The notes under the pieces: generated by a model
The model's database searches: none
Told to the model about the DNA's origin: nothing
The model's input: the letters and a program-made list of their open reading frames with translations, nothing else
Program-made: the position numbers and the translations under genes
Assembly: GCA_014360805.1 (NCBI GenBank)
Contig: JACIWU010000033.1
Span: 1 to 34,304 of the forward strand
DNA from: Chloroflexota bacterium
GTDB taxonomy: Bacteria > Chloroflexota > Anaerolineae > DTLA01
Length of the DNA stretch: 34,304 nt
Direction: 5' to 3'
Shown here: positions 322-33,708 of the stretch, in pieces
How positions within the stretch are numbered: position 1 is the first letter of the stretch
Layout of the letters: every line of letters starts with the position of its first letter

Positions 322-2058
322 CTACACCTCCGCCAGGTAAGCGTCCATCATCGCCAGCACGTGGCTGGGCGTCAGGTTCCGAAGTTTGCACGCCTTGTTG
401 GGGCATGCCACCACGCAGGCGCCACACCCCTGGCACAGAGCCTCGTGGACGATGGCCTTGTGCTTCCAGGGATGCATCTCGCGCGCCTGGTAAGGGCATG
501 CCGGGATGCACAGCCCGCAGCCCGAACAGAGTTCCTCGTCCACGTAGGCGATGGTAGGCTCGGCGACCAACTCGCGCTGGGAGAACAAGGACAGGACTTT
601 GGCGGCAGCGGCGCTGGCCTGGGCGACGGTCTCGGGGATGTCCTTGGGCGCTTGTGCGGTGCCTGCCAGGAAGATGCCGGCGGTCAGGCTTTCCACCGGC
701 CGCAGTTTGGGGTGGGCCTCGCTGAAGAAGCCGTGCTCATCGGTGGCGATGCGCAGTTTCTGTGCCAGTTCCACCGCGCCTTCCGCCGGCATGACGGCTG
801 TCGCCAGCACCGCCAGGTCTGCCTGTACCTCAATGGGCTTGCCGGTGAGGGTATCGGCGGCCCACGCGACGACTTTGCCGTCCTCTTCGTACAGGCGCGC
901 CACCTTGCCGCGAACGTACAGGACATCCTGCTGGGTCATGGCGGACTGTACGAACTCTTCGTAGTCGCGCCCCTGCGAGCGGATGTCTATGTAGAAGACG
1001 TAAGCCTGACCATCGGGCACGCGCTGCTTGTACAGGGTAGCCTGCTTGGCCGTGTACATGCAGCAAATTTTGGAGCAATAGGGCATGTGGTGCTCGGGGT
1101 CGCGCGAGCCAGCGCACTGCACGAAAATGACCTCCCGAGGCACCGTGCCGTCCGAGGGGCGTCGGATTTCGCCGCCCGTGGGGCCGTCGGCGGCCAGCAT
1201 CTGCTCAAAGGTCAGCGCGTCTATGATGTCGGGGTAGCGTCCGCCGCCGTACTCGCCGAATTTGGCGAGTGGCCGCAGGGAGTATCCCGTCGCCACGATC
1301 ACGGCGCCGAAAGCGTGCTCGGAGAACGTCGGCTCCTCATCGGCGCTGCCCGTCCGGTGCTTGAGTTTGGCGGTGAAGTTGCCCACGTAGCCGCCCAGTT
1401 CCTCTACCTCGGTCCGCAGGAAGACTTTGATGCGCGGGTTGTTTTGCACCGCCTGCAACTTGGACTGCAGGAGGTCGTGGGCCGCGTCAAAGTTGACATA
1501 AACGCCGGACAGTTGGCCCACGTGGCCGCCGAGTCGGTCGGAACGCTCCACGAGCACGACGGGGTATCCAGCGGATGCGATGTCTAGGGCCGCCTGCAAC
1601 CCCGCGATGCCGGCGCCGATGACCAGCGCCTTCTTGACGAGGGAGAGGGATAGGGGAACCAGCGACTCGTTGTACTTCACCTTCTCCACGATGGTTTTGA
1701 TGTGCTCAATAGCCTTCTCGGTCGCGGCTTCCTTATCTCCCTGGTGTACCCAGGACACCTGCTCGCGGATGTTGGCAATCTCGGTCTGGTAGGGGTTGAG
1801 ACCCGCCTGCGCCGACGCTTTGCGGAAAGTGGTTTCGTGCATGGCCGGGCTGCATGCCGCTACCACAACGCCCTCAAGATTCTCGTCCTTGATGGACTGG
1901 CGAATCAGCGACTGCCCGGGGTCCGAGCACATGTACATGTAGTCGGTGGCGAGGACGACGCCTGGGTAGTCCTTGAGGGCCTCGGCGACGCGCTTCACGT
2001 CCACCGTGCCGGCGATGTTGATGCCGCAGTGGCAGATGAATACGCCAATCCGCTTCAT
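322..2058 (-). CDS. hdrA: HdrA-like flavoprotein, N-terminal domain and C-terminal diferredoxin form
   Basis: 578 residues. An N-terminal HdrA domain (FICHCGIN at 7-14, C44, C69) is followed by a thioredoxin-reductase-like FAD domain with GAGIAG at 148-153. Next comes the HdrA signature cysteine group C315, C328, C332, C333 and a C-terminal ferredoxin domain with CxxCxxCxxxC motifs starting at C511 and C542. HdrA is the electron-bifurcating or electron-entry flavoprotein of heterodisulfide-reductase-type complexes. The middle ferredoxin insertion and the LDCxxC motif usual after the FAD fold are missing here (the segment reads VNFDAAHDL), while the neighbouring HdrA carries them. The ATG at 2058 overlaps the upstream stop by 4 nt. 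An in-frame start 51 nt upstream adds a stretch without homology-like features and was not used. Cytoplasmic; the redox partner is unknown. Confidence 0.9.
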   Translation of the reverse strand: MKRIGVFICHCGINIAGTVDVKRVAEALKDYPGVVLATDYMYMCSDPGQSLIRQSIKDENLEGVVVAACSPAMHETTFRKASAQAGLNPYQTEIANIREQVSWVHQGDKEAATEKAIEHIKTIVEKVKYNESLVPLSLSLVKKALVIGAGIAGLQAALDIASAGYPVVLVERSDRLGGHVGQLSGVYVNFDAAHDLLQSKLQAVQNNPRIKVFLRTEVEELGGYVGNFTAKLKHRTGSADEEPTFSEHAFGAVIVATGYSLRPLAKFGEYGGGRYPDIIDALTFEQMLAADGPTGGEIRRPSDGTVPREVIFVQCAGSRDPEHHMPYCSKICCMYTAKQATLYKQRVPDGQAYVFYIDIRSQGRDYEEFVQSAMTQQDVLYVRGKVARLYEEDGKVVAWAADTLTGKPIEVQADLAVLATAVMPAEGAVELAQKLRIATDEHGFFSEAHPKLRPVESLTAGIFLAGTAQAPKDIPETVAQASAAAAKVLSLFSQRELVAEPTIAYVDEELCSGCGLCIPACPYQAREMHPWKHKAIVHEALCQGCGACVVACPNKACKLRNLTPSHVLAMMDAYLAEV

Positions 2059-3413
2059 GATGTCTCCGCTCCGACGGGGGTCTCCATGGCCTGGGGCACG
2101 CCGCTCCACTGGGCGAAGAGCGACAGGACTTTGGCGGCAGCGGCGCTGGCCTGGGCGACGGTCTCGGGGATGTCCTTGGGGCTGGTAACGGCCCCCGCCA
2201 GGAACACGCCCGGACGCGACGTCTCCACGGGCAGCATGTTGTCATCCAGGGGCAGCAGGAAGCCGTAGGGGTTGGTGGGGATGCCGAGCATCTCGGCCAG
2301 TCGCCGCGTCTCGGGGTGAGGCACCATGGCTGGGGCCAGCACCACCATGTCGGCGGCGATCTCCACCGACGCCCCGCTGAGCGTGTCCGCGCCCCAGACG
2401 ATGACTTGATCGCCCTCACGGAAGACGCGCGCCACCTTGCCTCGGATATACAGCACGCGGTCTTCTTCTGTGGCGCGGTGGTAGAATTCCTCGTAGCGCT
2501 TGCCCGCTGCGCGCACGTCTATGTAGAACACATACGCGGTGCCGTCATGCACCCGATGCTTGTACAGCATGGCGTGTTTCGCCGTGTACATGCAGCAGAT
2601 TTTGGAGCAGTAGGGCATGGCGGTTTCGGGCGCGCGGGAGCCGGCGCACTGGATGAATACCACCTGCTTGGGCTCCTTGCCGTCCGAGGGCCTCCGAACC
2701 TTGCCCGCGGTGGGGCCGGACGCCGAAAGCAGCCGCTCAAATGCCAGGCCGTCCACTACGTCGGGAATCTGACCGTATCCGTACTCGCCCAGGTTCTCTA
2801 GCCCGTACAACGTGTAGCCGGTCGCGATGATGACCGCGCCGACTTCCACTTCCGTGGTGGTCGCCTGCTGCTCGTAGTCAATGGCGTGGACGGGGCAGAC
2901 TTTCTCGCAGAGGCGGCACTTGCCCCGCGTAAACCATGTGCAGGCGTCGCGGTCTATGACGGGCTTGTTGGGAACCGCCTGGGGCGACAGCGTGTAGATG
3001 GCCTTGCGTTTGCCCATGCCTCGGTCAAAGGGCGAGGCGACTTTGGTCGGGCATTTCTCCTGGCAGAGGCCGCACCCCGTGCACACGTCCCAGTTGACCG
3101 ATGCCGGCTTGCGTTGGACGGTGGCGGTGAAGTGCCCGATCTCGCCCGTGATGGCCGTAACTTCCGAGAACGTCATGAGCCGGATTCGCTCGTGGTGGCC
3201 GGCTTCTACGGTGCGGGGGGTTAGGATGCATTGGGCGCAGTCCAGCGTCGGGAAGGTCTCGGACAGTTGGAGCATCCGCCCGCCGATGGAGGGTTCCCGC
3301 TCCACGAGGACGACTTCGTATCCTGAGTTGGCGATGTCCAGGGCGGCTTGGATTCCCGCAATGCCGGCCCCGATGATGAGGACTCGCGTGATGGGCGACT
3401 TGTCTTCCGCCAC
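2055..3413 (-). CDS. hdrA: HdrA-like flavoprotein, short form with inserted ferredoxin domain
   Basis: 452 residues. The protein begins almost at the FAD motif (GAGIAG at 15-20), so the usual HdrA N-terminal domain is absent. It has the LDCAQC motif (C59, C62) and an inserted ferredoxin-like domain with C111/C114/C117/C121 and C158/C166/C169/C173. It also has the HdrA cysteine group C256, C269, C273, C274, and ends without a C-terminal ferredoxin. In length and layout it resembles QmoA-type and other short HdrA homologues. The start is a GTG with GGAG 8 nt upstream, 10 nt after the hdrB stop. It is translationally coupled to the next HdrA by an ATGA overlap. The two proteins together supply the full cofactor set of one canonical HdrA. 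Confidence 0.9.
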   Translation of the reverse strand: MAEDKSPITRVLIIGAGIAGIQAALDIANSGYEVVLVEREPSIGGRMLQLSETFPTLDCAQCILTPRTVEAGHHERIRLMTFSEVTAITGEIGHFTATVQRKPASVNWDVCTGCGLCQEKCPTKVASPFDRGMGKRKAIYTLSPQAVPNKPVIDRDACTWFTRGKCRLCEKVCPVHAIDYEQQATTTEVEVGAVIIATGYTLYGLENLGEYGYGQIPDVVDGLAFERLLSASGPTAGKVRRPSDGKEPKQVVFIQCAGSRAPETAMPYCSKICCMYTAKHAMLYKHRVHDGTAYVFYIDVRAAGKRYEEFYHRATEEDRVLYIRGKVARVFREGDQVIVWGADTLSGASVEIAADMVVLAPAMVPHPETRRLAEMLGIPTNPYGFLLPLDDNMLPVETSRPGVFLAGAVTSPKDIPETVAQASAAAAKVLSLFAQWSGVPQAMETPVGAETS

Positions 3414-3423
3414 GTTGCGTCTC

Positions 3424-4293
3424 CTAGATCAGCCCTTTCGCGGCCAGAAGCGGCCTCGGGTCTACGTAGTGCTTGTCCAAGTCAAAGGCGGTGGCATCCA
3501 GCCCCAGCGCGATGCCCAACAACTGCATGTCGTACAGCACGGGAATGGGCCGGAAGCCGCCGTGCTTCATGGCCAGGTCCTGTTGCCAGCGGTCCAGGTT
3601 GAACTGGCACAGGGGACAACTGGTAACGATAAGGTCTGCGCCCGCCTTCCTGGCTGACGCCAAGATGAGGTAGGACATCTCCTTCGTGGTCTCCAGGTCA
3701 AAGGCCGCGATGTAGTTGCCGCAGCATTCGGCGCGGTGCGGATAGTCGGCAACCTGGGCGCCGAGGGCGCGCAGGAAGTTTTCCAGTATCTGGGGGTTCT
3801 CGTGGTCGTCAAACCCCATCTCTTTTGGGGGGCGCAGGAACATGCAGCCATAGTACGGCGCAACCGAGAGGTCGGCCAGGTTCTTCTTCACGGCCTTGCT
3901 GATGTTGTCCCAACCCACTACGTCGCGCAGGATCTCCAGGAGGTGAATCACCTCCACTTCGCCCGTGTACTCGGCCTCAATAAAGAAGTTGATCTTCTCG
4001 CGCTTGTCTTCCTCGTTGCGCATGACGAGGTTGGATCGCTTGAGCACGTTGAAGCAGGTGGAACAGGCCGCCGCGAGTTTGTCGCCCTCCGTTGCCGCGC
4101 TGACGAGGTTGCGCACCGGCCCTGCCAGGTCCAGCAGGTTGTCGCGGCTCAGGGGGAAGGTCGCGCCGCAGCAGTTCCACATTTTCAACTCGGCCAACTC
4201 TATGCCCAAGGCGGCCATGGAGTCCCGCGCCGCGCGGTCAAACCCCTTGGCCTTGGTGCTGAGAGTGCAGCCGGGATAGTAGGGAATTCTCAT
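3424..4293 (-). CDS. hdrB: HdrB-like subunit with two CCG domains
   Basis: 289 residues, the usual HdrB length. Two cysteine-rich CCG domains are complete: C9, C41-C42, C77, C80, and C150, C190-C191, C226, C229. In methanogen HdrB these ligate two noncubane 4Fe-4S clusters that carry out disulfide cleavage; homologues act on other disulfides or as electron-transfer modules. The segments PGCT, NCCG, ECCGNY and SCPLCQ are well preserved, so a catalytically competent subunit is expected. It lies between hdrC (22 nt gap) and the short hdrA (10 nt gap), the common HdrCBA order. The native substrate cannot be deduced, since bacteria like this normally lack CoM-S-S-CoB. Confidence 0.93.
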   Translation of the reverse strand: MRIPYYPGCTLSTKAKGFDRAARDSMAALGIELAELKMWNCCGATFPLSRDNLLDLAGPVRNLVSAATEGDKLAAACSTCFNVLKRSNLVMRNEEDKREKINFFIEAEYTGEVEVIHLLEILRDVVGWDNISKAVKKNLADLSVAPYYGCMFLRPPKEMGFDDHENPQILENFLRALGAQVADYPHRAECCGNYIAAFDLETTKEMSYLILASARKAGADLIVTSCPLCQFNLDRWQQDLAMKHGGFRPIPVLYDMQLLGIALGLDATAFDLDKHYVDPRPLLAAKGLI

Positions 4294-15283: not shown

Positions 15284-15338
15284 TTCTCGCACCTTTGGGT
15301 GCGTGCATTCCACAACACATTGTGCGCGGAGGTTAGAA

Positions 15339-15740
15339 ATGAAGGTGGAACAAGGCCTGCTGTACCTGGAAAGCCACGAGTGGGTGCGCCTGGAGGGCGA
15401 CGAGGCAGTGGTGGGCATCTCGGACTTCGCCCAAGAGGAACTCAACGATGTCGTGTACGTGGAACTGCCCGAGGTGGGCGACACCTTTGCGAAAGGGGAT
15501 GTGTTTGGCACCGTGGAGTCGGTGAAGGCGGCATCGGATGTCTACCTGCCGCTCAGCGGTGAGGTCATCGCCGTCAACAAGGAACTGGAAGACTCGCCGC
15601 AACTGGTGAACGAAGATCCCTACGGGAAGGGCTGGTTCGTGCGAATCAAGGTCAGCAACCCGGAGGAGGCGAAAACTTTGCTGGACGCCGACGGGTACGC
15701 CAAATTCCTCGCTGAGGAGGCGAAAAAAGGAGGGCATTGA
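15339..15740 (+). CDS. gcvH: glycine cleavage system H protein
   Basis: 133 residues from the ATG at 15339, with GGAGG upstream. The lipoyl-carrier signature [15 protein letters not shown] places the lipoylated lysine at K63. [26 protein letters not shown] and [14 protein letters not shown] are standard GcvH blocks. It shuttles the aminomethyl group between the P, T and L proteins. The stop overlaps the next start (TGATG), so gcvH and gcvPA are translationally coupled. An in-frame start 36 nt upstream was rejected because this ATG has the ribosome-binding site. Confidence 0.97.
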
Positions 15741-17077
15741 TGCCATATATACCCCATAACGATGCTGACCGCGCCGCGATGCTCAAGGCCATCGGGGTCA
15801 GCAGCCTTGAGGATCTCTTCCGCGACGTGCCGGCTCAGGCGCGCTATCCTGAGATCAATCTCCCTGCCCCGATGTCCGAGCCTGAACTGCTGGACCACAT
15901 CGGCGCGTTTAGCCAGATGAACGCCGACCTCAATCACTTCATCTGTTTCCTCGGCGCTGGCGCCTACAGGCATTTCATCCCAAGCGTCGTGGATCACATC
16001 GTTAGCCGCAGCGAATTCTACACTGCCTACACTCCCTACCAGCCCGAAATCAGCCAGGGCACGCTTCAGGCGATCTTTGAGTACCAGAGCATGATCTGCG
16101 CGCTCACGGGGATGGAAGTGGCGAACGCTTCGCACTACGATGGGGCTACTGCCGTGGCCGAGGCTATCGTCATGGCCTACAACGTACAGCGGAAAAAGCG
16201 CAACAAGGTGGTCATGTCCCCGTATGTGCACCCGGAATACCGCGCCACGGCCCGAACGTACGTGCAGGGGCTTGGGCTGGAGATCGTGGGCGACGACCGC
16301 CGTCAGGACCTGGACACGGTTCTCAATCTGGTGGACGAGCAGACCGCTTGTGTCGTTACCCAGACGCCCAACTTCCTGGGTGAGATTGAGGATTTGCGAG
16401 GCGTCGGCGACCGCGTCCACGCCAAAGGCGCGCTGTGGGTGGTGGTGGCAGACCCCATCTCGTTGGGTCTGTTCAAGGCGCCCGGGGACTACGGCGCTGA
16501 TATCGTTGTCGGGGAGGGGCAGCCTCTGGGCAACCCCCTCAGTTTCGGTGGCCCGTACCTGGGGTTCTTCGCCACCCGCGAGCGGTTTGTGCACAAGATG
16601 GCCGGGCGGCTGGTGGGCGAGACGGTGGACGCGGAAGGCCGGCGGGGCTTCGTTCTGACCCTTTCGGCCCGCGAGCAGCACATTCGGCGCGAGCGAGCCA
16701 CATCCAACATCTGTAGCAACGAGGCGCTGAATGCCCTGGCCGCGGCGGTCTATCTGGCGGCGGTGGGCAAATGCGGCCTTCGGCGCATCGCCGAACTGTG
16801 CTACCACAAGGCCCACTACGCGGCCAAAGCCGTCTCCAAAGTCCGCGGCTACTCGGTCGTAACGACAAAGCCCTTCTTCAAGGAGTTTGTCGTCCGGTGC
16901 CCTATGCCGGTCAGCGATCTCAATGATGAACTGCTGGAGTGGGGAATCGTAGGCGGGTACGATCTTGGCCGCGACTACCCGGACCTGGCCAACCACATGC
17001 TCCTGTGCGTTACGGAGCGGAACTCCCGCGCTGAAATTGACTATCTCGCCAAGGCACTGCGTGAGGTGGCGAAATGA
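15740..17077 (+). CDS. gcvPA: glycine dehydrogenase (decarboxylating) subunit 1
   Basis: 445 residues, the normal size of the N-terminal half of the P protein in organisms with a split enzyme. Characteristic blocks are [52 protein letters not shown] and SNICSNEAL. With GcvPB it decarboxylates glycine and loads the aminomethyl group onto GcvH, or does the reverse. The ATG at 15740 overlaps the gcvH stop by one base; a TTG directly before it is unlikely to be used. It ends in a 4-nt ATGA overlap with gcvPB. Confidence 0.96.
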
Positions 17078-18522
17078 CAGAGCCTCTTATCTTTGAGATC
17101 AGCAGACCAGGCCGGTGCGCTGCGTCGCTGCCGGAGTGCGACGTGCGGCCGTCTGCCCTGCCGAAGGACCTGCTCCGCGACGAACTGCCGCTGCCAGAGG
17201 TGAGCGAGTTGGATTTGGTGCGGCATTATGTGCGGCTGTCGCACCTGAACCACGCAGTGGACACGGGCTTCTATCCCCTGGGATCCTGCACGATGAAGTA
17301 CAATCCCAAGGTCAATGAGACTTTGGCTCGGCTGGAAGGCTTTGTGGCCACTCACCCATATCAACCCGAGTGGACCGTCCAAGGCAACCTGATCCTCATG
17401 TATGAACTCCAGGAGTGCCTGAAGGAGATCAGTGGGTTTGCGGCGGTGTCCCTTCAGCCGGCGGCGGGCGCGCACGGCGAATTCGCGGGCATGCTCATGG
17501 TTCGGGCGTACCATCTGGACCGAGGCGATCGCGGCCGCACCAAAGTGTTGGTGCCCGACTCGGCTCACGGCACGAACCCGGCTTCCACGGCCATGTGCGG
17601 CTTTGAGGTGGTGGAGATTCGTTCCGACGAGCGGGGCAATGTGGATCTGGAGGATCTCAAGGCTCATTGCGACGAGCACGTGGCGGGGATGATGCTCACG
17701 AACCCCAACACGCTGGGCCTGTTTGACGAGCACATCCTGGAGATTGCCGACATCGTGCATGGGTGCGGCGGGCTTCTGTACGGCGACGGGGCGAACCTGA
17801 ATGCCATCGTCGGAGTTGCGAAGCCCGCGGATCTCGGGTTTGACATCATGCACTTCAACTTGCACAAGACGTTCTCCACGCCTCACGGGGGCGGAGGCCC
17901 AGGCGCTGGCCCTGTCGGGGTAACCCAGGCGCTGGCCCAGTTTCTGCCCGGCCCAATCGTCGTTGAAGAGGAGTCCGATGAGGACGAGGGTCCGTATTAC
18001 TCCCTGGCCATGCCGGCCAAGAGCATCGGGCGGCTCAAGGCGTTCTACGGCAACTTCGGTGTGCTGGTGCGCGCCTATGCCTACATCCGACACCTGGGCG
18101 CGAGCGGGCTTCGCCGGGTAGCCGAGCACGCGGTGCTCAATGCGAACTATTTGCGCGTGCGGCTTCAGGACACCTACCCGCTGCCCTACAAGCGAACGTG
18201 CATGCACGAGTTCGTACTGTCGGGCACGATCCCCGGCGCTGAAGGTGTGCGGACCCTTGACATCGCCAAGCGGCTCATGGATTTCGGCTTCCACCCGCCG
18301 ACCATCTACTTCCCGCTGATCGTGCCGGAAGCCTTGATGATTGAGCCGACCGAGACCGAATCCCTGGAGACGCTGGACGCTTTCGCCGGCGCGATGCTCA
18401 AGATCGCCGAGGAGGCGCGCACGCAGCCGGAGATGCTGCACGATGCGCCGTTCACGACGCCGCTGCGGCGATTGGACGACGTTCGCGCGGCCCGCGAGCC
18501 GAAACTGCGCTGGCAGCCATAG
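17074..18522 (+). CDS. gcvPB: glycine dehydrogenase (decarboxylating) subunit 2
   Basis: 482 residues. The PLP-binding lysine is K265 in [48 protein letters not shown] and [16 protein letters not shown] are strong family blocks. It is the catalytic half of the split glycine decarboxylase. It is coupled to gcvPA by a 4-nt overlap. The T protein that completes the system is not in this operon but inside the large fusion on the opposite strand (19768-23373). No gene for the L protein (dihydrolipoyl dehydrogenase) is in the window. Confidence 0.97.
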
Positions 18523-18551: not shown

Positions 18552-19691
18552 ATGGCTACCCCCAGAGTCCTGGTGGTGGATGACAGCAGCACGGCGCGGG
18601 CGTTCGTAAAGGCGGCGCTCGCCCGATCGGGGTTGAACATCCTGGAGGCCAGCAGCGGTCCCGAGGCGCTGGCCCTGCTGGGGGCGCAGTCCATAGACCT
18701 GGTCATCACGGATGTCGTGATGCCGGATATGGACGGCTACGAACTCGTGCGCCGCATTCGCAAGGACCCGCGCACGAGCGGAATCCCTGTGCTGGTCCTC
18801 ACGTCGCGGGGCGATGTGGCCGACAAGGTCGCCGGCTTTGAGGCGGGCGCCGACGATTACATGGTAAAGCCATTTGAGCCGGCGGAGTTGGAGGTGCGCG
18901 CCAGGGCTCTGCTGGCGCGGCGCGCGGTTTCCAATGCGCCAAGCGTCGCGCAGGAGAAGCAGGCGACCAGCGTCGCGGTTTTCGGGTGCAAGGGGGGCGT
19001 GGGAACGACCACGATTGCGGTGAATCTGGCCTTGGCCCTGCGCGAACTCAGCGGTGGGGCCGTTGCCCTCGTTGACGCCGACCTGTCCTTTGGCGACGTG
19101 GGCCTGCACCTGAACGTGCCCCCCGTGCACACCATCAACGACCTCGTGCAGTATGTGGAGGAACTGGATGCCTCCATGCTTGCCCAGGCGATGGTGGAAC
19201 ACCCGAGCGGCATTCGGGTCCTGCTGTCGCCGCCGAGACCCGAGAGGGCAGAAGAGGTATCCGCGCGCCTCATCGGGCGAGTGCTGGACGTGGCCTCGCG
19301 CAGTTTTGACTACGTTGTCGTTGACACGCAGCGGGTGTACGACGACCGCACGCTGATGGTTTTGGACAAAGCGGCTGTTATCCTGCTGGTCCTCACGGCG
19401 GACATCGGCGCGCTGCGCAATGCCAGCCTGTTCCTGACGCTCGCCCGAACGTTGGGCTATCCCGCCGACAAGGTCATACCGGTCCTGAACGGCACAGGCG
19501 TGGGTACCGGAATCCGAGAGCAGGACGTGAGGCGGGTTCTGGGCGGGCGAGAACCCGTCTCCATAGAGTCGGGGGGCGTGGAAGTGGCGCTGGCGACCAA
19601 CCAGGGCAATCCGATCATCCTCGCGAATCCGCGGAACAAGGCGGTGCGCGCCGTGAAGCAACTGGCCGGAAGGATTGTCTCAGAAGCGTGA
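18552..19691 (+). CDS. response-regulator receiver domain fused to MinD/CpaE-like ATPase
   Basis: 379 residues. An N-terminal receiver domain (about 4-122) has the acidic pair D10/D11, phospho-acceptor D54 (VITDVVMPDMDG), T84 and K106. A MinD/ParA-type P-loop ATPase follows with CKGGVGTTT at 146-154, a DAD motif near 180 and VVVDTQ as Walker B. This is the CpaE/TadZ layout, which positions pilus-secretion machinery at the cell pole, but no pilus genes are nearby. The ATG is 29 nt after gcvPB, with GGGAGG rather far (15 nt) upstream. The shared strand and the terminator right after it suggest it is the last cistron of the gcv operon. Its cognate kinase is not visible. Confidence 0.88.
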   Translation: MATPRVLVVDDSSTARAFVKAALARSGLNILEASSGPEALALLGAQSIDLVITDVVMPDMDGYELVRRIRKDPRTSGIPVLVLTSRGDVADKVAGFEAGADDYMVKPFEPAELEVRARALLARRAVSNAPSVAQEKQATSVAVFGCKGGVGTTTIAVNLALALRELSGGAVALVDADLSFGDVGLHLNVPPVHTINDLVQYVEELDASMLAQAMVEHPSGIRVLLSPPRPERAEEVSARLIGRVLDVASRSFDYVVVDTQRVYDDRTLMVLDKAAVILLVLTADIGALRNASLFLTLARTLGYPADKVIPVLNGTGVGTGIREQDVRRVLGGREPVSIESGGVEVALATNQGNPIILANPRNKAVRAVKQLAGRIVSEA

Positions 19692-19767: not shown

Positions 19768-22700
19768 CTATTCTCCGGTTTCGGGCATGACCGGAGCGCC
19801 TAGCCTGGGGAATCGCGCCAACACCGTGCACCATTCGGGGAGCACGACCTGGTCCCCCCGCTCCAGTTCGGCCAGGGAGACGGGCTTGTCGGTTTTGGCG
19901 GCCGCCGTTGGGAAGACCGCAATCTCCGTACCCTCCTGCGCGTAACGCTTGTCCACCAGCGCCATGCCGATTTGAGTTTCGCCCACGAGGGTACAACTGG
20001 TAACGCGGCCGATGTATTGCCCACGCTTGTTGACCACAGGCTCGTGGCCGCGGAGGGCGCGGGCGTTGGGCGAATTGACCCGGAACCGGACGATGGTGTT
20101 CTTGGCCTCGGCGGAGTGTTGCAGGATTGCGTCGCGCCCCACGAAGAACGGCTTGTGGTACTTGACATAAGGCTCAAAGCCTGCCTCAATTGGGGTGATC
20201 CCGTAGGCTCCGGCCAACTCATGCCCGTACAGCGGCAGGCCGGCCTCAATGCGCGTGGAGTCACGCGCGGCCAGGCCAGCCGGCTTCAGCCCAAACGGCT
20301 CGCCTTTCTCTAGCAACAGATTCCAGAGGCGCACGGCCTCATCCGGATGCACGAAAAGTTCAAACCCCACCGGTTCGCCGGTGTAGCCTGTGCGGGACAC
20401 AACCAGTGGGATGCCCGCAAGGGTGGTCTCTATCAACTCCGTGCGGCGGATGTGCGCCAAGTCCGCGGCCTGCCTGGAGTCGCGGGCCAGGCTTTGCAGG
20501 ATCGCCAGGGATGCGGGGCCTTGCAGCGCCAGGTCAACTTTGCAGTCCTTGCCCCAGCGGGGGTCTTTCAGGTCGCGCAGGGTGGCGGGGGCTTCCACGC
20601 GCACATAGGGCCGATTGCGGTCAATCCGCACCTGCCCTTCGTTCACGGCGTTCAGCCAAGCCCAGTCCTTCTCCGCATTGGCCGCGTTGACCACCACCAT
20701 GTACCGGTCGCGCCGCAGGCAGTAGATGATGATATCGTCCAGGACGTTGCCATCCGGGTCCAGCAGGTAGGCGTACTGCGACTGGCCAGGCTCCAGCCAC
20801 CGCACGTAGTTGGACGCCACCACGTCCAGGAACGAGGCCGCGTGGGGGCCTGAGACTTCCAGCACGCCCATGTGGGCCACGTCAAACAGGCCGGCGGTCT
20901 TTCGGACGGCGGCGTGCTCCTCACCGACGCTGGTGTACCAGACCGGCATCTCCCAGCCGGCAAAGGGAATCAACTTGCGCGTGCGCTTCTTGTGCTCTTC
21001 GTAGAGCGGTGTTCGCTTGAGGGTTTCTTCTTCCTGCCACTGCCATGTGAATTCAGGCAGGTGCTCCACCGGCGCGGACGCGGCCAAAGACTCTTGCCCC
21101 ACGAAGTAGGGTTTGCGCAGGTCAAAGAGGGTTTCGTGCCCGCCATGGAGCAGCGCCAAGGCGCTGGGGCGGGCGGCTTCGCCGTCGTAGGCGGGAAGTC
21201 CGGCCGCTCGCCGCGCCGCAATCCAAGCGTCGCGGCCGCCAGGCACCGCGCCCGCATCCGTGAGGCTCTTCTCCAGCGCCGTGATGGCGTCGGGATGGCC
21301 CATGCAGAGAAGCCCGTCGCGCAGGAAAGGCGCGCTGCCGATGAGCAGCGGGTGGCCGGCAAATTGCGTTTCCTGCGCGCGGCCTTGCTCAACGTTGCCG
21401 ACGCGCAGGACGTTGTCCAGCAGGGCGCGCGCCGCTGGGCCGACGACCGCCAGGGCCACCAGCGTCGCCTCGTCGGGCGCCTCTGTGGTAGCATCTACGA
21501 CAATCGCAGGCCCCTGCACCTTGCGCAGGATGTCCTGGTTGTCAAAGAGCACGTAGCCGTCGCTCAGCGCGCGGAGCCAATCCCTGACCGTGTCGGCGTT
21601 GGCGGCGTTGACGATCACGTGGTAGCGGTCCTCGCCCTGGGGGCCTGGGGCAAGCCGCAGGATGAGCACGTCGTCCAGGACATGGCCATCTCCGTCCAGG
21701 AGCGCGGCATGGGCCACCTGGCCGGGTTCCAGGGCGGCCAAGTTGGCCGTTGTGGCTTCCTGGAGAAACGCGTGGGCGCGCGCGCCACGCACAGACAATA
21801 TCGTGAACTGCGACGGGTCCAGGATTACCGCGCCTTGGGCCAGGGCGCGCGAAACGGCAGCGGGGTCCGGCGTGTGCGTCTGAACTGGCACCGCAGCGGG
21901 GCTCGGCGATGGCGGCAGATGGTAGTGGGGGTAGCCAGAGCGGCGTTCGGTCTGGGGCTCAAACCGCGAGGCGAACTCGTCCACTTCTTGCCGCACCTGG
22001 CGAAGGAGCGCGAAGGGAGCCTTTCCGCGCGGCAGGATGCCGCTGAGACCCACGTACTGGAATGGGCGAATCTCGCGGACGACGCGGAAGATGAAATCGG
22101 CGATGCGATCCATGTCCGGCTCGCGCATGCCGCGTTGCGTAACCCAGGGCGTGCCGAGTCGTATGCCGCTGGCGAGGGCGGTGATCTCGTCGCCGGGGAT
22201 AGTGTTCTTGTTGACGATGATTCCGCAGATTTCCAGCAGGCGCGCCGCTATTTCGCCCCTGGGGAACTCGCCCGTCGGCGACTTCACGGACTTGAGGTCC
22301 ACCAGGAGGAGGTGGGTATCCGTCCCGCCGTAGGCCAGGCGCAGGCCACGGTCCTGCAAACTTTGGGCCAGTGCCTTCGCGTTGAGCACGATTTGCTTCT
22401 GGAGCGCGTGGAATTGCGGCGTCTGCGCGAGTTTGAAGGCCACGGCAAGGGCTGCGAACGTGTTGACGTGAGGCCCGCCCTGTTCGCCCGGGAACACGGC
22501 GCTGTCAATCTTCGCGGCATGTTCTTCCGATGTGGTCAGGATCACGGCCGCGCGCGGCCCGCAGATAGTCTTGTGGGTGGTGAACACGGTAACGTCGGCG
22601 ATGCCCACCGGGCTTGGATAGGCGCCGGCGACGACCATGCCTGCCGTGTGGGCGATGTCGGCCATGAGGATCGCCCCCACGGCGTCAGCGATTTCGCGGA

Positions 22701-23373
22701 ACTTCTGCCAGTCGGGCGCCCATGGATAGGACGTGTAGCCCGCGATGATCATCTTGGGGCGATGCTGGAGCGCCAACTCGCGGATGGCGTCGTAGTCCAG
22801 GCGCTCGGTCTTGGGGTCCACCGTGTAGGAGACGATGCGGTACTGCTTGCCCGAACGGTTGAACTGGCTGCCGTGGGTCAGGTGGCCGCCGTGCATCAGG
22901 TTCATACCCATGACGGTCTCGCCGGGGCGGACGAACGCCTCGTAGATGGCGTTGTTGGCGGCGGCCCCCGACAGCGGCTGTACGTTCACGAAGATTTGGT
23001 CGGCGCGCACGCGCTCGTTGGCGAAGCAGGCGGCGGCGCGTTTCTGGGCCAGCGTCTCCACGAAATTGACATAATCGGCACCTTTGTAAAATCGCCGATC
23101 CGCGTAGCGTCGGTAGTAGGCCAGTTGATGATCATAATCCAGCAGTAGTTCTTCAGGTTCCCGGCCCATGCGGGTTGGGGGATAGCCTTCGGCGTAGATG
23201 TGCGAGAACTCGGACGAGAGCGCTTCTCGCACGGCAGAGGGCGCTATGCTCTCCGATGGAATCAGAATGATGCGCCGGGACTGGCGCTCTCGCTCCAAAT
23301 CAATCAGAGTCTGAACTTGAGGGTCCAGCGAGGCCAGGGAACCATGGAAGAGAAAACTGTGGCGCTCACTCAT
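19768..23373 (-). CDS. glyA-gcvT: serine hydroxymethyltransferase - truncated GcvT/YgfZ-like - GcvT triple fusion
   Basis: 1201 residues in one frame; ATG with AAAGGAG upstream. Residues about 11-470 are SHMT: IIL-SES near 35-42, DIAHTAGM at 239-246, PLP lysine K268 in TTHKTICGPR, FPGEQGGPHVNTFAA and SGIRLGTPWVTQRGM. SHMT carries an extra segment of about 28 residues (66-94) between YAEGYP and RFYKGADY. A Pro-rich linker (480-505) leads to a compact GcvT/YgfZ-like module (about 505-770) that keeps an LDD motif (D567, D568) and KPYFVGQE. This module lacks the FAGWEMP and TGYTGE blocks and the C-terminal barrel. Residues about 785-1190 are a complete aminomethyltransferase (FAGWEMPVWY, LDD at 878-880, RTGYTGE, RDSTRIEAGLPLYG). 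The protein joins the 5,10-methylene-THF-producing step of glycine cleavage to the methylene-THF-using serine synthesis. Preceded by an unknown gene, gap 4 nt. Confidence 0.93.
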   Translation of the reverse strand: MSERHSFLFHGSLASLDPQVQTLIDLERERQSRRIILIPSESIAPSAVREALSSEFSHIYAEGYPPTRMGREPEELLLDYDHQLAYYRRYADRRFYKGADYVNFVETLAQKRAAACFANERVRADQIFVNVQPLSGAAANNAIYEAFVRPGETVMGMNLMHGGHLTHGSQFNRSGKQYRIVSYTVDPKTERLDYDAIRELALQHRPKMIIAGYTSYPWAPDWQKFREIADAVGAILMADIAHTAGMVVAGAYPSPVGIADVTVFTTHKTICGPRAAVILTTSEEHAAKIDSAVFPGEQGGPHVNTFAALAVAFKLAQTPQFHALQKQIVLNAKALAQSLQDRGLRLAYGGTDTHLLLVDLKSVKSPTGEFPRGEIAARLLEICGIIVNKNTIPGDEITALASGIRLGTPWVTQRGMREPDMDRIADFIFRVVREIRPFQYVGLSGILPRGKAPFALLRQVRQEVDEFASRFEPQTERRSGYPHYHLPPSPSPAAVPVQTHTPDPAAVSRALAQGAVILDPSQFTILSVRGARAHAFLQEATTANLAALEPGQVAHAALLDGDGHVLDDVLILRLAPGPQGEDRYHVIVNAANADTVRDWLRALSDGYVLFDNQDILRKVQGPAIVVDATTEAPDEATLVALAVVGPAARALLDNVLRVGNVEQGRAQETQFAGHPLLIGSAPFLRDGLLCMGHPDAITALEKSLTDAGAVPGGRDAWIAARRAAGLPAYDGEAARPSALALLHGGHETLFDLRKPYFVGQESLAASAPVEHLPEFTWQWQEEETLKRTPLYEEHKKRTRKLIPFAGWEMPVWYTSVGEEHAAVRKTAGLFDVAHMGVLEVSGPHAASFLDVVASNYVRWLEPGQSQYAYLLDPDGNVLDDIIIYCLRRDRYMVVVNAANAEKDWAWLNAVNEGQVRIDRNRPYVRVEAPATLRDLKDPRWGKDCKVDLALQGPASLAILQSLARDSRQAADLAHIRRTELIETTLAGIPLVVSRTGYTGEPVGFELFVHPDEAVRLWNLLLEKGEPFGLKPAGLAARDSTRIEAGLPLYGHELAGAYGITPIEAGFEPYVKYHKPFFVGRDAILQHSAEAKNTIVRFRVNSPNARALRGHEPVVNKRGQYIGRVTSCTLVGETQIGMALVDKRYAQEGTEIAVFPTAAAKTDKPVSLAELERGDQVVLPEWCTVLARFPRLGAPVMPETGE

Positions 23374-23377
23374 GATC

Positions 23378-24415
23378 TCACTCCTTTGTGATTTGCTTTG
23401 CGCTGGGCACCGGGACCGTCTCGTACTGCCGTGGCAAATCCTTGCGTTCCCAGGCGCGTTCTATCAGCAGGTAGATGCCTCCCGTCAGCAGGCTGTTGCC
23501 GCCGAGGACGGCAGGGCGGTCGCCGTTCAAGAGCGCCTCGGTGAGCCGACGCAATCCCCGGTGGGCGACGCGGGCAACCAACCCCATGTCGGAATAGAAG
23601 AAATCGTCCGGCGCGGGCCACTCTGATTCGCGGAACAGGATGCGCGTGTTCACCAGAAACGCCTCGCCGAGTTCGGACAGGTACCGCACGAAGCGCGCGG
23701 CTCCGACCGAGGCCAGCAGCGAGGTGAGCAATCCGCCCGGCGCATCGCCCAGCAGCCGCACGCGGCAGGCGGTCTCTTGCTCCAGGTGCCGCCATCCTTC
23801 CGAGCCGGGGTCGCCCACAACGACGAGTTCGGCGGTGCGCTTCGTCAGAACGCGGGTAACGGCGCGGATGTTCTCGGCGACGACGGGTGCGGGGCGGGTG
23901 CTCTCGCCCGGAGCCAGGTCTCGCGGGCCAAGCGTGTCCAACAGGCAGAGGTCTCCGGCGGTGGCGATGCGGAACATGGTGGCGGCGGCGGGCGGGAACA
24001 GTTTTTGCGGCTTGCTTCCGGTTTTGGGCCACGTTCCCCCGGGGAACGCCCACAGGTCCGCGCGTTGCGGGCGGTTGCCCCAGATACAGCCGTCTCGCGC
24101 TGCCAGGCCCAGGCGACAGGCGCTCTCGCCGGTCAGGAGCGCGCCCGCGCCCCATCGCACCCACAAGACGCTGCCGGCGATTCCGGACAGTTGGTGGGCG
24201 CCCGGCAACGGGGTGTCGTCTCCGAAGAGGCGCGCGGCCTCGCATCTGTCGCCGACGAGCACCGCACGCGCGCCGCATTCCTGCGCGGCCTTGGCCACGC
24301 GCAGCACGGCGCGGCGACGAGCCTCGGCGAGGGCTGAACGCATCCCGTCGCCACCTTGCGTTGGCCGCACTTCCAGGGCGACGTGGAGTGTATTTGACGA
24401 CTGCCCAACAATCAC
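23378..24415 (-). CDS. conserved-looking protein of unknown function, operon partner of the SHMT-GcvT fusion
   Basis: 345 residues from a GTG at 24415 that has GGAG 7 nt upstream. An ATG at 24454 in the same frame would give 358 residues but has only GGTGGA directly against it. I do not recognise the family. The protein has no signal peptide or membrane segment. It contains several glycine-rich turns, a VVVGDPGSEGW stretch near 200 and a C-terminal GGNSLLTGGIYLLIERAW block near 305. The stop is 4 nt before the SHMT-GcvT start, and a strong promoter lies just upstream (24482-24510). The two genes therefore form one transcript, suggesting a role in glycine, serine or folate metabolism. A second frame over the same DNA (23370-24470) is Arg/Ala/Pro-rich and looks like a shadow. 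Confidence 0.7.
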   Translation of the reverse strand: MIVGQSSNTLHVALEVRPTQGGDGMRSALAEARRRAVLRVAKAAQECGARAVLVGDRCEAARLFGDDTPLPGAHQLSGIAGSVLWVRWGAGALLTGESACRLGLAARDGCIWGNRPQRADLWAFPGGTWPKTGSKPQKLFPPAAATMFRIATAGDLCLLDTLGPRDLAPGESTRPAPVVAENIRAVTRVLTKRTAELVVVGDPGSEGWRHLEQETACRVRLLGDAPGGLLTSLLASVGAARFVRYLSELGEAFLVNTRILFRESEWPAPDDFFYSDMGLVARVAHRGLRRLTEALLNGDRPAVLGGNSLLTGGIYLLIERAWERKDLPRQYETVPVPSAKQITKE

Positions 24416-24481
24416 GGAAGATCTCCGGAGTTCTCGGAATGGCAGGGCTTGCATTCCACCGATGCAGCACTGTCTAGAGGC

Positions 24482-24510
24482 ATTCTACTATCCGAGGGGC
24501 GCTTTGTCAA
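24482..24510 (-). promoter_or_regulatory. promoter of the unknown gene - SHMT-GcvT operon
   Basis: On the minus strand a perfect TTGACA (24510-24505), a 17-nt spacer and TAGAAT (24487-24482), about 67 nt before the GTG start. Confidence 0.75.
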
Positions 24511-24527
24511 AGGCGCGCGCGGGTGGC

Positions 24528-24574
24528 GGCCCCTTACCCTAGCCCGCTCCCCGCATAAGCGGGGCGGGGGGACT
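24528..24574. repeat. dispersed GC-rich palindromic repeat, copy 1
   Basis: CCCCTTACCCTAGCCCGCTC followed by CCGCATAAGCGG and a G-rich arm forms an imperfect palindrome. It closely resembles copy 2 at 24621-24670. It belongs to the CCCTCACCC(T/C)AACCCTCTCCC type of intergenic repeat found scattered in many bacterial genomes. It lies in the 330-bp gap between divergent promoters. Confidence 0.7.
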
Positions 24575-24745: not shown

Positions 24746-25948
24746 ATGACCGTCATCCAGGTGCGACCCGACATCTATTGGATCGGCGTCAATGACCGGA
24801 CGACCGACCTTTTTGAAGGCGTGTGGCCCATTGACCAGACGGGTGTGTCCTACAACGCTTATCTTGTCCGCGACGAGAAAACGGCGCTGATTGACCTGGC
24901 CAAGGCGTTCAAAGCCGACGAATTCCTGGGTCAGATCGCCCAAGTCTGCGACCTGGGCGCGATTGACTACGTGGTTGTCAATCACGTAGAACCCGACCAT
25001 TCCGGCTTGTTGGCGCTTTTCCGCAGGCTTGCGCCCCAGGCGACCATTGTCGGCACGGAGAAGACCAAGGAGTTGCTGGAGGCCTTCTACGGCGGCGCCG
25101 AATCCGTCCAGGTCGTGCAAGATGGAGAGGTGCTGGACCTGGGCAGCCATACCCTTCAGTTCTTCTCCACGCCGTTCGTGCACTGGCCGGAGACGATGAT
25201 GACCTACGACCAGGCGCAGAAAGTGCTTTTCTCGTGCGACGCCTTTGGCGGATACGGCGCTCTCCGCGGCGCGATCTTTGACGATCAGTGCGTGGATATG
25301 GGCTTCTACGAGCGCGAGGCGTTACGCTACTACGTCAACATCATCGCCAAGTTCAGCGGCCCGGTGCTTCGCGCCATCAAGAAACTGCAATCGGTGCCGC
25401 TGGAAGTGATTGCGCCGTCTCACGGCCTCGTCTGGCGCAAGAACCCGCAACGCATTGTGGAACTGTATGCGCAGTGGGCGCGCTATGCCACCGAACCCGC
25501 TGAGCCCGGCGTTACGCTCCTGTACGGTTCCATGTACGGCAATACCGAGAGGGTGATGAACGCCGTTGCACAGGGAATCTCGCGCGAAGACGTGCCGCTG
25601 GAGGTGTTTGACGTTGCGCGCACCCACTACAGTTATATCCTGCCCTCGTTGTGGACAAAGATGGGCGTGATGATCGGCGCACCGACGTATGAGGTGGGGT
25701 TGTTTCCCCCAATGGCTCATGTGCTGGATATTGCCGCGCGGAAGCGCGTCATGAACAAGAAGGCGGCATGGTTCGGGAGTTATGGCTGGAGCGGAGGCGC
25801 GCAGAAGGAACTGGCCGACCTCATCACTCCGCTCAAGTGGGACTTGCTGGAAACGATGGAGTTCAGAGGCGGGCCGACGGCCGAGGACATGAAGGCCGCA
25901 GAGGAATTCGGCGCTCGGTTTGCACGCGCACTTGTCCAGAATCATTGA
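24746..25948 (+). CDS. fprA: flavodiiron protein (A-type flavoprotein, O2/NO reductase)
   Basis: 400 residues, the length of class A flavodiiron proteins; the ATG is preceded by AGGAGGTGG. The N-terminal metallo-beta-lactamase-like domain carries the diiron ligands H80-x-E82-x-D84-H85, a histidine in FVHWPETM (H146), D165 and a histidine in APSHGLVW. A C-terminal flavodoxin domain starts near 255, with the FMN loop YGSMYGNTER. These enzymes reduce O2 to water or NO to N2O in anaerobes, fed by rubredoxin or F420H2; no rubredoxin gene is adjacent. It is monocistronic, with its own promoter. Detoxification fits the oxygen-sensitive fumarase and Hdr proteins of this region. Confidence 0.95.
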   Translation: MTVIQVRPDIYWIGVNDRTTDLFEGVWPIDQTGVSYNAYLVRDEKTALIDLAKAFKADEFLGQIAQVCDLGAIDYVVVNHVEPDHSGLLALFRRLAPQATIVGTEKTKELLEAFYGGAESVQVVQDGEVLDLGSHTLQFFSTPFVHWPETMMTYDQAQKVLFSCDAFGGYGALRGAIFDDQCVDMGFYEREALRYYVNIIAKFSGPVLRAIKKLQSVPLEVIAPSHGLVWRKNPQRIVELYAQWARYATEPAEPGVTLLYGSMYGNTERVMNAVAQGISREDVPLEVFDVARTHYSYILPSLWTKMGVMIGAPTYEVGLFPPMAHVLDIAARKRVMNKKAAWFGSYGWSGGAQKELADLITPLKWDLLETMEFRGGPTAEDMKAAEEFGARFARALVQNH

Positions 25949-32316: not shown

Positions 32317-33648
32317 TCAGCGCACCGTACGCGGCATGACGACCCGGAAGATGGCCTGATATTCGCTGTTTGCGTTGAGGGCCTCGCCGCTCCAGCCGCC
32401 GATGGCGTAGAGGCGCGTCTCAAATGCAGCCAGACCGAGATTTCGCCACTGGCCGATGGTGGGCGTGGGGAAGCGTACCCACGTGTCGCTCTGGGGTTCG
32501 TAACGCTCGTTATACGCCACAAATCCCCTCCAACCGCCGCCCACGACGTAGATGTTGTTGCCCACGGCTGCGGCGGCCGCTCCTCCGCGCGGGACGCTCA
32601 GGGATGCGCATGATCTCCACGGTTGGGTTCCCGTGCCCTCCAGGGATGGCGAATACTCGTAGCACGTGGCAAACTCGCGCGTCCCGTCGTAGCCGCCGAT
32701 GAGGAAGACCTTGCCTGCGAGCGCGGCAACCGCCTGAAAGCCGAGCGCCTGCGGCATCGGGGTGCGGGCAGTCCAGATACCCGTGTTGGGCGCGAATTCA
32801 AAGACTGTGTCCACGTATCGGCGGCCGTCCCATCCGCCGAACAGGTAGATACGCTCGCCGACCTCGGCCAGGGCGTAGGCCGAGCGCGGGGCAGGCAACG
32901 GCGGCCCTTGCGTCCATTCCTGCGTGATGGGGTTGTAGATTTCCAGCGTGCTGAGCACGCGGCCTTGGGCGTCGTGGCCTCCGGGCACGTAGATGCGCCC
33001 GCCTAGGGTTACGGCTCCGATGTTCGCGGCGGGGGTAGGCTTGGGTGGGTGGCTGACCCAGCGGTCTTCGGCGGGCAGGTATTGCTCCACCGCTCCCGTA
33101 ACCTGGCCGCCGGCGACGCCGCCGATGGCGAAGATGCCGCTTTCTGTGGCAACGACGGCCAGCCTGGCCCGCGCGGTAGGCATGGGCGCGCGGTTCGTCC
33201 AGCGGGATGGGAGGCGCTGGGGAGCCGCAGGGGCGGCAGCGCCGGAGTCAAGGAAGGGATCAGCGGCATTGCCGGCCTGTGGGTGAGTCCCCGCGACGCT
33301 CACCGCCACGAGCGCGACGGCCAGCGCGGCGGCGAGGATAAGGTAGGCGCGCTGCCAAGAGGCCCATGCGCGACGCAAAGGCGGCCAGTCCAAGGTCGGC
33401 GCGCTGGGCGCCGGTTCTGTGGCTTGGGGTGGCTCAACGCGGATCAGCCCTCGCCGCACGGCCACCATTGTGGCTTCAGTGCGTGACTCCACGCCGAGTT
33501 TGGCGAAGATGTTGCGCAGGTGAACCTTGACGGTGTTGACGCTGATGGTGAGTTCGCGCGCGATTTGCTGATTCGTTGCGCCGCGTGCGACCAGGCGGAG
33601 GAGTTCCATTTCGCGCTCGCTCAGTTCCTCGTTGTCTTGCGATACCAT
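32317..33648 (-). CDS. LuxR-type HTH, membrane segment and Kelch beta-propeller protein
   Basis: 443 residues from the ATG at 33648. An N-terminal LuxR/GerE helix-turn-helix (about 8-65: LSEREMELLRLVARGATNQQIARELTISVNTVKVHLRNIFAKLGV) is followed by one membrane helix (about 101-119). A Kelch propeller (about 150-443) then shows six glycine-pair blades: FAIGGV, YVPGGH, YLFGGW, FLIGGY, YVVGGG, YAIGGW. With the HTH inside and the propeller outside, this would be a one-protein sensor and DNA-binding regulator. No receiver or nucleotide-binding domain is present. An ATG at 33708 lies within the promoter and was rejected. Its stop is 1 nt from the recombinase-fold gene stop, in convergent orientation. 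Confidence 0.88.
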   Translation of the reverse strand: MVSQDNEELSEREMELLRLVARGATNQQIARELTISVNTVKVHLRNIFAKLGVESRTEATMVAVRRGLIRVEPPQATEPAPSAPTLDWPPLRRAWASWQRAYLILAAALAVALVAVSVAGTHPQAGNAADPFLDSGAAAPAAPQRLPSRWTNRAPMPTARARLAVVATESGIFAIGGVAGGQVTGAVEQYLPAEDRWVSHPPKPTPAANIGAVTLGGRIYVPGGHDAQGRVLSTLEIYNPITQEWTQGPPLPAPRSAYALAEVGERIYLFGGWDGRRYVDTVFEFAPNTGIWTARTPMPQALGFQAVAALAGKVFLIGGYDGTREFATCYEYSPSLEGTGTQPWRSCASLSVPRGGAAAAAVGNNIYVVGGGWRGFVAYNERYEPQSDTWVRFPTPTIGQWRNLGLAAFETRLYAIGGWSGEALNANSEYQAIFRVVMPRTVR

Positions 33649-33679
33649 TGGCCGGCTCCACACAGAACACGCTGCGTGC

Positions 33680-33708
33680 ATTATGCAACAGGGGGTCGGA
33701 TTCGGCAA
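33680..33708 (-). promoter_or_regulatory. promoter of the HTH-Kelch gene
   Basis: On the minus strand TTGCCG (33708-33703), a 17-nt spacer and CATAAT (33685-33680). Transcription would start near 33673, leaving a leader of about 25 nt. Confidence 0.65.

Follow-up and report, generated by a model that had tools for sequence, protein, structure and literature searches.

A single-chain fusion of serine hydroxymethyltransferase, a degenerate GcvT domain and a T-protein in Chloroflexota and other bacterial phyla

One gene of a Chloroflexota bacterium encodes, in a single chain, serine hydroxymethyltransferase (SHMT), a degenerate copy of the folate domain of GcvT and a complete aminomethyltransferase (T-protein). 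Its product is very probably one bifunctional SHMT/T-protein, in which the middle module would be a non-catalytic spacer or interface. This is a genuine and widespread multifunctional enzyme, built from known parts and apparently so far undescribed. By the window we mean the whole stretch of DNA that was analysed, the 34,304 nucleotides of contig JACIWU010000033.1. The gene and its upstream signal are these:

19768-23373, minus strand: the whole fusion gene, 1201 amino acids, SHMT - degenerate GcvT domain - T-protein (frame, Pfam domains, genome search)
23381-23384, minus strand: GGAG, Shine-Dalgarno-like, 7 nt 5' of the fusion ATG (sequence inspection)

The frame runs for 1201 codons and a stop with no internal stops, and it begins at the first ATG past the preceding stop. 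No in-frame ATG occurs between residues 691 and 809, which leaves no ATG from which a separate T-protein with its conserved N-terminus could be translated. Pfam places SHMT at residues 86-428, GCV_T twice and GCV_T_C at 1094-1153. The initial annotation, which named no strand, had read one frame of SHMT, a GcvT-type module and a complete aminomethyltransferase, and the intact frame and the Pfam domains bear this out. The structure prediction it had proposed was run and gave a confident AlphaFold model of the whole chain (pLDDT 87, pTM 0.87). Two congeners have the entire frame at 87% identity. Compared with one of them, SHMT and the T-protein each show a dN/dS of 0.07 and the middle module 0.23; judged by these ratios, purifying selection is acting on all three modules. 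A plus-strand ORF that overlaps the fusion (20872-23148, 758 amino acids) was rejected as unsupported.

The N-terminal part of the chain consists of the following:

21964-23373, minus strand: SHMT module, residues 1-470 (about) (Pfam, alignment to G. stearothermophilus SHMT)
22570-22572, minus strand: the PLP lysine K268 of the SHMT module (alignment)
21829-21963, minus strand: variable linker, residues 471-515 (lower pLDDT; 56% identity between congeners)

SHMT is recognized by two profiles, PF00464 with 407 bits (cut-off 27) and NF000586 with 443 (cut-off 335). As in GlyA (EC 2.1.2.1, PF00464), the domain is complete, with the PLP lysine and the catalytic residues: Y60, E62, D239, H242, K268 and R405, placed by alignment to G. 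stearothermophilus SHMT, are invariant in all 58 sequences compared. That enzyme is the best solved relative of the module (E 3e-102). The fusion differs from GlyA in an insertion after YAEGYP, because of which the N-terminal segment matches separately, and in carrying two GcvT-type modules at its C-terminus. SHMT functions at least as a dimer. In the monomer model the SHMT part matches solved SHMTs, but the placement of its subdomains relative to each other is untrustworthy, because superposition over the whole range gives an rmsd of about 19 A.

At the other end of the chain lies the T-protein:

19771-21063, minus strand: complete T-protein, residues 771-1201, folate domain and GCV_T_C barrel (Pfam, structure match, alignment)
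20734-20736, minus strand: catalytic D880 of the T-protein (alignment)

TIGR00528 scores 317.9 bits on the whole protein (cut-off 235.85), with its best stretch at 785-1153, and the modelled module matches the T. maritima T-protein (1wos) with Z 45.7. D880 and Y884 correspond to the catalytic Asp96 and Tyr100 of T. maritima; in the alignment to that protein both are kept in 58 of 58 sequences, and so are E1000, R1037 and R1041. With GcvT (EC 2.1.2.10) the fusion thus shares folate domain, barrel, catalytic Asp and Tyr, and linkage to gcvH, gcvPA and gcvPB, the difference from the stand-alone enzyme being that its T-protein is preceded on the chain by SHMT and by a degenerate copy of GcvT. Because the catalytic residues of both enzymes are identical throughout the 58 sequences, the product very likely serves glycine cleavage as a functional enzyme with both activities.

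The middle module is of another kind:

21064-21828, minus strand: middle module, residues 516-770 (about), GcvT folate-domain fold without barrel, judged non-catalytic (profile, structure model, fold match)
21670-21678, minus strand: LDD motif, residues 566-568, in long forms, absent from most short forms (alignment)
21508-21579, minus strand: conserved patch, residues 599-622, W..LSDGY.LFD..D...K.QGP, in long and short forms (alignment)
21094-21114, minus strand: KPYFVGQ motif, residues 754-760, in long and short forms (alignment)

By itself it exceeds the GCV_T cut-off (90.8 bits, profile positions 20-240 of 255). Its model (pLDDT 91) superposes on residues 49-278 of B. subtilis GcvT with a VIA-align Z of 22.4 over 219 residues, and it is confidently predicted to be a complete GcvT folate-domain fold. 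The initial annotation had called this module truncated, lacking the barrel and keeping the LDD motif. There is indeed no GCV_T_C there, and LDD is in place; truncation is right for the barrel and for the first 47 or so residues of a T-protein, which are both absent, and wrong for the rest of the folate-domain fold, which is whole.

As a functional GcvT the module fails. The N-terminal FAGWEMP segment and the RTGYTGE segment are gone along with the barrel, and neither long nor short forms have Tyr at the tabulated residue equivalent to T. maritima Tyr100. The C-terminal T-protein has 73 conserved positions, and the module retains 33 of these in half or more of 27 long-form homologues. In the short forms, about half of the homologues examined, much of its second half is missing. 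The two LDD aspartates are kept in 26 and 25 of 28 long forms and in 10 and 11 of 30 short ones. Both forms conserve W599, residues 603-622 (LSDGYxLFDxxD...KxxGP) and KPYFVGQ, and this shared patch suggests a structural or docking role for the module.

YgfZ/IBA57 likewise has a GcvT fold without T-protein chemistry, and as a fold match YgfZ ties with GcvT (Z 21.6 vs 22.4). By sequence profile the module is nearer GcvT (1yx2, E 1.7e-27) than YgfZ (E 4e-6). We rejected a YgfZ identity: YgfZ has a C-terminal barrel and a Cys motif, whereas the module has no barrel and the KPYFVGQ of the window contains no Cys.

A search for the fusion in other genomes, which had been suggested as a check, found it across several phyla. 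One genome per species was scanned, giving 299 candidates. The titles of the best 80 of these 299, taken as loci, name Chloroflexota, Aerophobetes, Bipolaricaulota/Acetothermia, Planctomycetota, Myxococcota/Deltaproteobacteria, Bdellovibrio, Spirochaetes and others, these labels being MAG titles among which lone odd phyla may be binning errors. The relatives are mostly 45-60% identical. In a sample of 60 genomes of the class, about 30 have a full fused frame of at least 1000 residues, several of them two, and about 20 have separate enzymes only. A phylum-wide search returned many more fusions, together with ordinary GcvT genes that the same search picks up. One locus (L069, 8001-14554) has a tandem pair of fusion genes, about 50% and 57% identical to that of the window, and two diverged copies each are also present in class genomes G010, G045, G048, G049 and G032.

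One family (f3; three genomes, two genera) has the gene in two pieces. The first encodes SHMT with a half-module (591-612 amino acids, ending at the conserved GP) and the second a T-protein of 421-441 amino acids; the two genes are neighbours in one genome, and each of the other two genomes has them on separate contigs. This split may represent a fission or a state before the fusion. Since the family exists with separate SHMT and T-protein, the fusion is not indispensable. Its half-module stays on SHMT with W(L/W)RALSDGYVIFD retained, a hint that the conserved patch packs against SHMT. An apparent split in another genome (G334) was set aside, as it includes a run of N and a poly-Gly tract.

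In quick trees without a mixture model, a branch with support 100 sets the stand-alone SHMTs of the class apart from the fusion SHMTs, and another, with support 99, does the same for the stand-alone GcvTs. The middle modules cluster together, away from both C-terminal and stand-alone T-proteins; hence there is no sign that the neighbouring domain was duplicated recently. On the SHMT tree, which included one wrong-frame row, long and short forms are intermixed, and the length of the module has therefore changed more than once.

In this assembly the fusion is the only detectable SHMT and T-protein of the cell: a profile search of the 96%-complete genome found no second SHMT and no second GCV_T gene. 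The fusion is also the single match in nine further genomes of the 60-genome sample. The remaining components of glycine cleavage are encoded nearby:

15303-15740, plus strand: gcvH, lipoyl carrier H-protein (domain/profile match)
15737-17077, plus strand: gcvPA, glycine dehydrogenase subunit 1 (profile match)
17074-18522, plus strand: gcvPB, glycine dehydrogenase subunit 2 (profile match)

This block (15303-18522) lies 1.2 kb from the fusion in opposite orientation, with one gene between. At nine loci from several phyla (L034, L039, L045, L048, L070, L072, L073, L082, L096) gcvH, gcvPA and gcvPB share the strand of the fusion and lie close to it, and at another (L043) gcvH and gcvPA are near it and the contig ends there. 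The GcvH and GcvP partners expected of a GcvT are thus found both in the window and in other phyla. FTHFS and FolD are present in the genome, near each other, as is a PGDH-like protein that scores below the curated cut-off, so serine and methylene-THF could have other sources too.

Directly upstream of the fusion is a further gene:

23378-24454, minus strand: a 358-amino-acid protein, 4 nt gap to the fusion (no Pfam/NCBIfam family)

A homologue precedes the fusion in 24 of the 64 loci that have enough upstream sequence, at loci titled Chloroflexota, Bipolaricaulota, Atribacterota and Myxococcota. Canonical relatives have an N-terminus that looks like a nucleotidyltransferase type (FHFG, GSGSG, FDIDTPTDL), with very weak CofC/KdsB hits, and a C-terminal domain of no known family with GGHSLVSGGLY. 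The copy in the window has a degenerate N-terminus, and there is a fuller paralogue elsewhere in the genome (G000:C17:6081-7169). ORFs at 23370-24470 (minus) and 23640-24542 (plus) are shadows of this gene, whose frame is conserved best (68% vs 51% and 60%).

Several other genes of the window can be mentioned. The one between gcvPB and the fusion (18552-19691, plus) joins a response-regulator receiver domain to a ParA/MinD-like ATPase domain. A cluster at 322-4293 (minus), similar to heterodisulfide-reductase-type modules, comprises flavin/Fe-S oxidoreductases and a CCG-domain protein. A flavodiiron protein, flavorubredoxin-like, is encoded at 24746-25948 (plus); such proteins are known from organisms with oxygen or NO detoxification. 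A LuxR-type HTH joined to Kelch repeats is found at 32317-33708 (minus).

The following scheme can be proposed. GcvPA/GcvPB would load an aminomethyl group onto GcvH; the C-terminal T-protein would take this group over and yield 5,10-methylene-THF and ammonia. The N-terminal SHMT would then join methylene-THF with a second glycine to form serine. As both reactions are reversible, the enzyme could also run from serine to two glycines. The middle module, a GcvT folate domain minus barrel and most of the active site, would hold the two enzymes in position as a spacer or interface, with no catalysis of its own. The presence of both sites on one chain may bring a kinetic advantage. That glycine cleavage is coupled here to SHMT, as was first supposed, is well supported by the architecture, the catalytic conservation, the gcv linkage and the lack of separate copies.

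How close this coupling is can be imagined in different ways. With a probability that we put a little short of even, the enzyme is bifunctional without channelling, and all that the fusion secures is that two activities are present in equal amounts and at the same place, with methylene-THF diffusing freely between them. The split family, which manages on separate chains, fits this well, and so does the variable linker after SHMT. Retention of the fusion over large sequence divergence and in many phyla speaks against it, as does the consistent arrangement in the whole-chain model; neither of these is proof of channelling. Transfer of methylene-THF between the two sites is plausible. Hence the more ambitious proposal can be entertained tentatively, and with somewhat less confidence than free diffusion: a widespread, undescribed serine/glycine synthase that channels its substrate, with a dead GcvT domain repurposed as the bridge holding the SHMT and T-protein sites together.

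The middle module itself might do more than bridge. It could be a platform for GcvH or for GcvPA/GcvPB, or an allosteric folate sensor. GcvT domains do bind H-protein (3a8i is the E. coli T-H complex), and the patch is common to long and short forms; yet in the split family the patch stays with the SHMT half, away from the T-protein, where packing on SHMT fits better, and we consider such a role unlikely. The initial annotation had suggested a relay, in which the module holds folate and hands methylene-THF from one active site to the other. The fold would suit this, as would the LDD aspartates of most long forms. A relay is nevertheless very unlikely and finds no support in the comparisons: catalytic Tyr, FAGWEMP and RTGYTGE are lost, most short forms have lost LDD as well, about half of the homologues do without much of the second half while both flanking enzymes are still present, dN/dS of the module is three times that of the enzymes, and the split family encodes SHMT with half-module and T-protein as separate proteins. 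Finally, an assembly error or frameshift joining neighbouring glyA and gcvT genes, conceivable in a draft of 154 contigs, is rejected with near certainty, being already contradicted by the full-length frames of the two congeners and of dozens of independent assemblies, and by low dN/dS on either side of the module junctions.

We know other enzymes in which a GcvT domain is fused to a partner. In dimethylglycine oxidase/dehydrogenase, sarcosine oxidase alpha and TMAO demethylase, an enzyme that yields a one-carbon unit is joined to a GcvT domain that captures this unit on folate. Such enzymes came up among the hits of our searches. In them the upstream enzyme passes its product to the GcvT domain as folate acceptor, whereas in the fusion the GcvT domain would be the methylene-THF source for an SHMT on the same chain. 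A description of the fusion was not found in the open-access full-text papers searched; one may exist elsewhere, and domain databases may list the architecture. A paper on the genome of an Acetothermia bacterium mentions glycine cleavage and does not note the fusion (PMC6092417).

With separate proteins it is difficult to find out whether SHMT and the glycine cleavage system pass methylene-THF directly to one another. A natural one-chain fusion in several phyla, with long-module, short-module and split versions, offers a ready series for comparison. If the channelling synthase is real, glycine cleavage and serine formation would run as one reaction in these bacteria. The fusion also has a bearing on engineered glycine/serine and reductive glycine pathways.
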